From positions 1 through 25,233 of IMG/VR virus record IMGVR_UViG_3300046516_000791: DNA of 25,233 nt, one strand, 5' to 3'. Positions 10,811 to 12,096 of the stretch are shown one piece after another; the stretch's first letter is position 1, and the number at the start of each line of letters is the position of its first letter. Both the position numbers and the translations under genes were made by a program. The notes under the pieces were generated by a model. The model was not told where the DNA came from. It searched no databases and was given only the letters and a program-made list of their open reading frames with translations. The DNA comes from a virus.

Positions 10811-11430
10811 CGGAGGAGGAACGGCTTGCGAAGCGTCGCGAGGTATCGCGGCGCTATGCCGAACGCCATCCCGACCGGGTAAAGGCGTCGGCGGCAAAGC
10901 ATCGCGGGCAAAACCAGGAGCGGCTTCGGGTCGAGGCTCGCGAACGGGCGGCACGCAAGCGGCGCGAACTTGGAATGAAGGAACGACCACAACCCATGTC
11001 GCCCGAGGATCACGCCGCCTATTGGCGCGAATACCAACGGCAATGGGCAAAGCGAAAGCGGCGCAGTCTCGGGACACCGGAGCGAGCGACACCCACACCC
11101 AAGGAACGGGCGGCGAAGCGCGTCGCGGCGCAGCATCGGCGATTGGTGACGATGCCCCCAGAATGGCACGCGAAGCGCAAGGAACAGATGCGGCAATGGT
11201 GGCAAAGCATCTCCCCAGAGAAGCGGCGCGAATACTGGAAACGAAACTATGCCAAGCACGGCGAAGCATGGCGCGCGCGCGGGCGCCTTCAGAGTGCGCA
11301 AAAGGTCGCCGCCCTTGCGTTCCTTCGATCGGTCGGCGTGATCAGGCGCGGCGACGGCGGCGGCGGTCGGATGGATGCCCTTTACCGCGCCGCGCTCGCC
11401 TACGTGCGCCAGCAAGGGCTGATGCCATGA
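10807..11430 (+). CDS. Highly basic repeat-containing phage protein
   Basis: A 207-residue protein from GTG 10807, coupled by GTGA to the gene before. It is very rich in Arg, Lys and aromatic residues. A loose repeat of Tyr/Trp and Arg/Lys recurs: RYAERHPDRVKASAAKHR, AAYWREYQRQWAKRKRR, and the stretch from MPPEWHAKRKEQ to YWKRNYAKHGEAW. Such arrays occur in phage proteins that bind nucleic acid. The C-terminal 50 residues are a separate helical region (LAFLRSVGVIRRGDGGGGR). No function known. Confidence 0.7.
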   Translation: MTEEERLAKRREVSRRYAERHPDRVKASAAKHRGQNQERLRVEARERAARKRRELGMKERPQPMSPEDHAAYWREYQRQWAKRKRRSLGTPERATPTPKERAAKRVAAQHRRLVTMPPEWHAKRKEQMRQWWQSISPEKRREYWKRNYAKHGEAWRARGRLQSAQKVAALAFLRSVGVIRRGDGGGGRMDALYRAALAYVRQQGLMP

Positions 11431-11440
11431 GGAAGAAAGC

Positions 11441-11572
11441 ATGAGATCACAGATCGAATTCGCGTTGTCGCATCCGGTGTTCGACCCGGAGCGACAGATC
11501 GTCGTCGGCCACTATTGGCGGGCGGGCGACACGGTGTCGGCGTGCCTGACTGTGAACATCGGCGAGGAGTGA
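11441..11572 (+). CDS. N-terminal part of a gene split by an in-frame TGA
   Basis: A 43-residue reading frame from ATG 11441, with GAGGAA about ten bases upstream, starting MRSQIEFALSHPVFDPERQ and ending VNIGEE before TGA at 11570-11572. The same frame stays open after the stop, continuing A-V-Y-A-G-G-R-P-L-W-H-L-S-L without a break to 11860. The join reads naturally as a single protein if the stop codon is read as an amino acid (a TGG Trp codon would differ by one base). Possible explanations are a nonsense mutation, a sequencing error or programmed readthrough. No family named. Confidence 0.6.
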   Translation: MRSQIEFALSHPVFDPERQIVVGHYWRAGDTVSACLTVNIGEE

Positions 11573-11605
11573 GCCGTCTACGCTGGCGGGCGTCCCCTGT
11601 GGCAT

Positions 11606-11860
11606 TTGTCGTTGTGCCATCAGGAGCGGACGGGGCCAGTGCCCGTGCTCCGTTGGAGCCGGATGACGGTGCGGAAGGTCGAGATGATCCGCGATCGGAT
11701 CATGTCCATGTGCGGCACGACGGAGCGGCTGATCGAGGCCGACGACTTTCTGGCGAACCATGTCCGGGTCACGATGCAATGGCGCAAGCCGCTGGCGATC
11801 GAGGAGGTCGCGCGCTTGGCGCCGACGGTCGAGGTTCGCGAGCGAAGGGGAAGGGCATGA
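11606..11860 (+). CDS. C-terminal part of the TGA-split gene
   Basis: In the same frame as the 43-residue gene upstream. As a separate gene it would need a TTG start at 11606 or ATG 11663, neither with a good ribosome binding site, which is why I favour one interrupted gene of about 139 codons (11441-11860). The sequence includes GPVPVLRWSRMTVRKVEMIR, TTERLIEADDFLANHVRV and QWRKPLAIEEVARLAPT, a well-formed helical protein. The stop overlaps the next ATG (ATGA). No function recognised. Confidence 0.55.
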   Translation: MSLCHQERTGPVPVLRWSRMTVRKVEMIRDRIMSMCGTTERLIEADDFLANHVRVTMQWRKPLAIEEVARLAPTVEVRERRGRA

Positions 11861-12096
11861 GCGAGAGCACACCCGCGAAGCCACCACACGGCGCGCGTTG
11901 CCAGGAAGCCAGCCCGCTTTCGCACCAGTTCTATATCGCATGCGGTCAGCCGGCCGAATACGTCGTGAAAAATCGCGATCCCGATCCATACGCGATGTGC
12001 GCGGCGTGCGCGGTCCATAACGTGCGCAATCGCGGCGCGCGCTATGTGCTGGCTTCGGAGACATTCACCATCGCAACGATCGAGGGCGGACGATGA
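11857..12096 (+). CDS. Small Cys-rich phage protein
   Basis: A 79-residue protein from ATG 11857 (ATGA overlap). It has a leading Cys (GARCQEASPL), a second in IACGQPAEYVVKNRDPDPY and a CAAC pair in MCAACAVHNVRNRGARYV, giving four Cys and a His in the order of a zinc finger. Proteins with this Y-x-M-C-x-x-C-A-x-H-N pattern occur in other phages without assigned function. The stop is coupled by ATGA to the next gene. Confidence 0.7.
   Translation: MSESTPAKPPHGARCQEASPLSHQFYIACGQPAEYVVKNRDPDPYAMCAACAVHNVRNRGARYVLASETFTIATIEGGR

Follow-up and report, generated by a model that had tools for sequence, protein, structure and literature searches.

The window analysed here, a 25,233 nt stretch of viral DNA (IMG/VR record IMGVR_UViG_3300046516_000791), contains an apparently broken gene that is most likely intact. 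It runs from an ATG at 11441 through an in-frame TGA at 11570-11572 to a final TGA at 11858-11860, and we consider it very likely to be a phage selenoprotein gene, whose internal UGA is read as selenocysteine (Sec) by way of the host SelB and a displaced SECIS element (Table 1). With confidence that is still high, if a shade lower, we would extend this to a family of phage selenoproteins that occurs in the Sec form only and carries a new class of SECIS, in which a closed RNA domain makes up for a displacement of the hairpin by 51-69 nt. The in-frame TGA is real and far beyond chance. The gene consists of 43 codons, the TGA codon and a second part of 95 codons, making 139 residues; an earlier note on this DNA gave the second part as 96 codons, a figure that on recount includes either the TGA codon or the final stop. 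A long antisense open reading frame (window 11447-12064, minus strand) lies in codon register with the gene and is conserved as its shadow only.

Table 1. Features of the recoded gene and its RNA element (window positions unless a locus is named)
Feature	Position	Strand	Basis
Joined gene, 139 residues with the internal UGA as one residue	11441..11860	+	Alignments, AlphaFold2 model
Shine-Dalgarno-like AGGA, 7 nt 5' of the ATG	11430..11433	+	Window sequence; AGGA/GGAGG-like sites in many relatives
In-frame UGA, proposed selenocysteine codon, residue 44	11570..11572	+	TGA in 81/81 distinct relatives
P1 helix, 5' strand CGCUGGC	11581..11587	+	Compensatory pairs, minimum-energy fold
Spacer looped out by P1, length variable among relatives	11588..11634	+	Minimum-energy folds
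P1 helix, 3' strand GCCAGUG	11635..11641	+	Compensatory pairs, minimum-energy fold
P2 hairpin, SECIS-like, CCG-[U]-GCUCC-GUU-GGAGC-CGG	11643..11662	+	Synonymous constraint, codon null, covariation, fdnG SECIS match
Bulged U of P2	11646	+	U in 73/74 strict P2 elements; position 77 with the U of UGA as 1
P2 apical loop GUU	11652..11654	+	GUU 59, GGU 14, GUC 1 (n=74)
Relatives without P2	L064:1054, L076:681, L219:2911		Proximal GGUC-loop hairpin

Relatives of the gene were collected in scans of IMG/VR viral contigs (25, 75, 65 and 80 loci) and collapsed to 81 distinct genes, with protein identities down to ~48%. The UGA is invariant: every one of the 81 carries TGA at this codon, and TAA, TAG, Trp, Cys and all other sense codons are absent from the position. 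This invariance was not built into the search, because the patterns of the 75- and 80-locus scans left the UGA codon out and that of the 65-locus scan had Cys in its place, the matches still being UGA genes only. The relatives come from about 60 metagenomes, as counted by eye in the table of the 75-locus scan, and none were found in the phage, plasmid and GTDB species collections (two GTDB scans). Cys-containing relatives exist for most selenoprotein families, being usual and not strictly required; here no Cys form was seen among the 81 distinct genes, the scan with the Cys pattern included. Two contigs hold two copies of the gene, G001 (L027 and L046) and G003, where the second copy (L240, G003:C1:31948-31972, minus strand) has a rearranged N-terminus, keeps both the UGA and P2, and has an in-frame upstream extension which by eye resembles the start of a DNA methyltransferase. 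The C-terminal tail of the family, QWRKPLSIEEINRMAPTAEVRERKGRP, occurs alone at L227:2196-2273, fused to unrelated sequence.

Conservation is of the translation type on both sides of the UGA. In the first 12 codons 3' of the TGA, pairs of genes differ on average by 0.13 at codon position 1, 0.11 at position 2 and 0.56 at position 3. The motif xVYAGGRPLWxLSL directly 3' of the UGA ranks with the most strongly conserved stretches of the protein, no codon ahead of +28 is conserved as a start, and AlphaFold2 models the joined protein as one domain spanning residue 44 (mean pLDDT 89.7, pTM 0.85). Since the differences are mainly synonymous, the motif is conserved, an early start is lacking and the product is a single domain, ribosomes must pass the UGA in frame, and we regard its recoding as close to certain. 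The earlier note had proposed from the letters that both halves belong to a single protein, with local readthrough as a live option, and both proposals are borne out; in none of the 81 relatives do the halves stand as distinct genes. The general change of code that the note had set aside is indeed unlikely, as TGA is also the terminator of this gene in most relatives, whilst neither selenocysteine nor a conserved downstream RNA element had been foreseen. Other frames were considered as the real gene and rejected: in most relatives stops interrupt the +1, +2, -1 and -2 frames on one side or on both, and they interrupt the in-register antisense frame in 38 of 64 C-parts, with conservation that tracks the plus frame.

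About 75 nt downstream of the TGA lies the P2 hairpin, which consists of lower pairs, a bulged U, a 5-bp upper stem and a G(U/G)U loop. Synonymous codon choice elsewhere is near the codon-usage prediction at most codons, but codons +28 to +32 are nearly frozen, with same-codon rates of 0.92, 1.00, 0.73 and 0.72 against an expected 0.36, 0.28, 0.25 and 0.28. Watson-Crick pairs throughout the upper stem are seen in 45 of 56 representatives, compared with 2.9 +/- 1.7 (maximum 10) under synonymous shuffling, and the variants of the stem, GCUCC/GGAGC, GGUCC/GGACC, GUCCC/GGGAC and GCUCA/UGAGC, differ by compensatory changes; L055, L057 and L147 have a single mismatch in the stem. A second helix, P1, is formed by bases 9-15 after the UGA, which pair with bases just 5' of P2; 4 of its 6 pairs covary, and in L046 its register is shifted with pairing retained. 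The RNA structure is under selection, with compensatory changes in 11 of the 14 pairs of P1 and P2 together, a number matched by 0 of 500 shuffles. P1 is on weaker ground than P2 because coding constraint alone favours it to some extent, with 4.48 of 5 pairs observed, a synonymous null mean of 4.08 and a maximum over 1000 nulls of 4.34. No match to the RNA element was found in Rfam.

Only three relatives (L064, L076 and L219) are without P2, and in each of these a 6-bp hairpin, whose GGUC loop is that of E. coli fdhF, stands 15 nt downstream of the UGA; this hairpin is otherwise present in just 1 of the 74 genes with a strict P2. It looks like a replacement SECIS at the canonical place, a pattern that was noticed post hoc, in which two of the three genes are related and the coding constraint on AGGRPL helps the hairpin to form.

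The P2 hairpin matches the SECIS elements of alphaproteobacterial fdnG genes. In the fdhF SECIS of E. coli, U17, G23 and U24 are invariant and 11 nt lie between the UGA and the upper hairpin (PMC8659212); numbered on NC_000913 with the U of UGA as 1, these are the bulged U and the G and U of the loop, and their equivalents in the window are the bulged U at 11646 and the G and U of the P2 loop. As is asked of a SECIS, P2 has its bulged base six nt before the loop G (a U in 73/74), a loop of the required kind and an upper stem of five pairs, within the 4-16 bp range. With fdhF and fdnG it shares an in-frame UGA within the coding sequence, the bulged U so placed, the G-U of the loop, the five-pair upper stem and lower CGG/CCG pairs, and with three of the fdnG genes a GUU triloop: the fdnG SECIS that lie beside Sec genes in Roseomonas, Sinorhizobium and Paracoccus read CGG-U-GUCCA-GUU-UGGGC-CCG or -CCA, and P2 in many relatives reads CGG-U-GCUCC-GUU-GGAGC-CCG. 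A GUC loop is found in both Terrarubrum fdnG and the phage gene L082. Against this, the phage P2 is about 60 nt farther from the UGA and stands behind the closed helical domain P1, whereas in fdnG a lower stem next to the UGA encloses the hairpin, and the fdhF/fdnG protein family is unrelated to the phage protein.

Searching 97 kb with a covariance model trained on 44 phage P2 sequences and no others gave as its top three matches the SECIS elements of fdnG in Paracoccus, Roseomonas and Sinorhizobium (E-values 0.0004, 0.0006 and 0.0027), the next match being at 1.2; the Terrarubrum fdnG SECIS and E. coli fdhF were not reported in that search. In 821 kb of phage DNA the same model matched this gene, together with two matches at E > 0.1. 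A strict test of SECIS layout, which is matched about once per 21.5 kb in control loci, picks out P2 and all four alphaproteobacterial fdnG genes, and an exact scan for the P2 core gave 71 stretches, of which this gene accounts for at least 57, while the remainder, L300 included, read as chance matches. A P2-like match on contig G042 lies within a proline/glycine-type repeat and was rejected as looking like chance. On a Terrarubrum plasmid (L100:20021) there is a chance-level match to the layout with a TGA 19 nt upstream.

Where P2 departs from known bacterial elements is in its spacing. Bacterial SECIS have been described by a rule of 16-37 nt from the UGA to the apical loop (PMC13188914), and along the sequence this distance is 79 nt in the window; because its linear spacing breaks the rule, we class the element as a variant and not as a canonical bSECIS. 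The bulged U, at position 77 in the window, ranges from 68 to 86 among relatives, and the direct spacing from UGA to bulged U has a median of 73 nt, compared with 13 in E. coli fdhF. In the minimum-energy folds, however, P1 closes a domain between the UGA and P2, and with closed helices skipped, 46 of 69 genes have a UGA-to-bulged-U path of 12 or 14 nt (13 in fdhF); a path of 10-16 nt is seen in 73% of the genes, compared with 33% after synonymous shuffling. Counting the closed P1 domain as looped out brings the spacing to the canonical value, and P1 probably serves to loop out the extra RNA and so set P2 at the canonical place.

The machinery for such decoding would have to be that of the host. 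The window also holds genes for RecT, an integrase and a baseplate protein, and on account of these neighbours it comes from a tailed phage or prophage; the gene itself lies in the early region, near RecT and small regulators, with an integrase nearby in a minority of loci. No selB was found in 50 phage contigs and no tRNA-Sec above the cut-off in 39, and neither 60 loci nor the array of 25 tRNA genes on contig G018 contained a UCA anticodon. A phage-encoded suppressor or Sec tRNA was accordingly rejected, there being no UCA anticodon and the matches to the tRNA-Sec model below the cut-off being ordinary tRNAs. As the phage contigs searched have neither selB nor tRNA-Sec, Sec machinery must come from the host. 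The tRNA array (L248, G018:C1:35000-40110) is on a phage contig that also carries this gene. The baseplate J protein has its nearest relatives in phages of Acetobacter (43.5%) and Komagataeibacter, which hints, and only hints, at an alphaproteobacterial host resembling the acetic acid bacteria. Roseomonas, which belongs to the family suggested by these phage relatives (Acetobacteraceae), has selB, selD and fdnG, with selB on 11 of its plasmid records; nested selB/selC genes have been described in Rhodospirillales (PMC8124441).

We would therefore envisage the following, as a proposal. The UGA at 11570-11572 would be decoded as selenocysteine by the SelB and tRNA-Sec of a Sec-making alphaproteobacterial host, with the bulged U, five-pair stem and G-U loop of P2 forming the putative SelB-binding part of the SECIS. 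The closed P1 domain would loop out about 60 nt of RNA between the UGA and P2, which would thereby come to lie, at a backbone distance of 12-14 nt, directly in front of a ribosome that has paused at the UGA, and the product would contain Sec.

The best of the alternatives, though we think it improbable, is that the UGA is read through by a near-cognate tRNA, for example that for Trp, stimulated by the RNA but with no part played by SelB or selenium, so that a short and an extended product are made. UGA is the leakiest of the stop codons, structured RNA is present on its 3' side and the phage contigs are without Sec machinery, all of which would suit such a reading. UAG, however, never substitutes for UGA in the 81 genes, and the base after the UGA varies (A 31, G 23, C 8, T 2), which argues against a simple leaky context; nor would near-cognate reading account for the SelB-type bulged U and G-U loop of P2 and its match to the fdnG SECIS, or for two halves that build one domain.

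It is very unlikely that there are two coding units, a 43-codon ORF and a second part that is reached by reinitiation or an internal start such as the GTG at codon +28 inside P2. An in-frame GTG is present at that codon in 60 of 64 aligned genes and an ATGA or GTGA overlaps the UGA, but the overlap opens a different frame with stops in most relatives, the GTG is kept because the pairing of P2 is conserved, and codons +1 to +14, well ahead of it and with no conserved start before them or up to +28, are among the best conserved and vary mainly synonymously. Slightly less likely again is that P2 binds SelB, or is some other regulatory hairpin, with no recoding of the UGA: a role in translational control has been ascribed to SECIS RNA in E. 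coli (Thanbichler and Bock 2002, as cited in PMC8124441), but this would leave unexplained why an invariant UGA is flanked on either side by conserved coding sequence. Finally, a recent point mutation, sequencing error or pseudogene has a negligible chance of being right, with nothing found in its favour and TGA in every one of the 81 relatives from about 60 metagenomes; the TGG-to-TGA change and the error that the earlier note had entertained are refuted by the same count, and the alignment it had suggested for a Trp at this position in relatives yielded none.

The product would be a small early-region protein. No convincing family match was found in Pfam, PHROGs (weak matches only), NCBIfam, PADLOC or, by sequence, the PDB. 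By structure nearly all of the best 47 neighbours are HIT proteins, albeit weakly, the best Z of 6.7 being below 8 and the Foldseek E 0.06; the HIT catalytic motif HxHxH is not conserved in alignments A1 and A4, where the C-terminal strand is VTMQWRKP. Our guess would be a protein with perhaps a HIT-like fold in which Sec 44 acts as nucleophile or redox centre.

We found no bacteriophage selenoprotein in the open literature, a search that leaves most subscription papers outside its scope and in which absence is not proof; phages are not mentioned in PMC13188914 or PMC12013277. Bacterial Sec decoding is thought to need a hairpin 16-37 nt from the UGA and prediction programs apply this rule, so that genes with a displaced SECIS will be missed or called as two fragments. 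If our reading is true, it is the effective and not the linear spacing between UGA and hairpin that matters, and the family offers a natural test of the way in which SelB reaches the ribosome. The selenoproteome would also gain a protein family absent from the family libraries searched, and some phages would rely on the selenium metabolism of their hosts, their host range being limited to those that make selenocysteine.

Amongst known systems, the coat protein UGA of phage Q-beta has, to our knowledge, no SelB-type hairpin, and its readthrough product is an extension and not one compact domain. It resembles the present gene in that an in-frame stop is read through in a bacteriophage (PMC8310308). 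The only viral selenoproteins met with in the open literature are those of eukaryotic poxviruses, and the glutathione peroxidases of fowlpox and molluscum contagiosum viruses are, like the one proposed here, virus-borne selenoprotein genes that use the Sec machinery of the host, in fowlpox also with the SECIS inside the coding sequence (PMC8310308). They differ in belonging to eukaryotic viruses, in having eukaryotic SECIS and in being taken from host glutathione peroxidase genes, whereas the phage gene represents a bacteriophage-wide family that has been found only with UGA.
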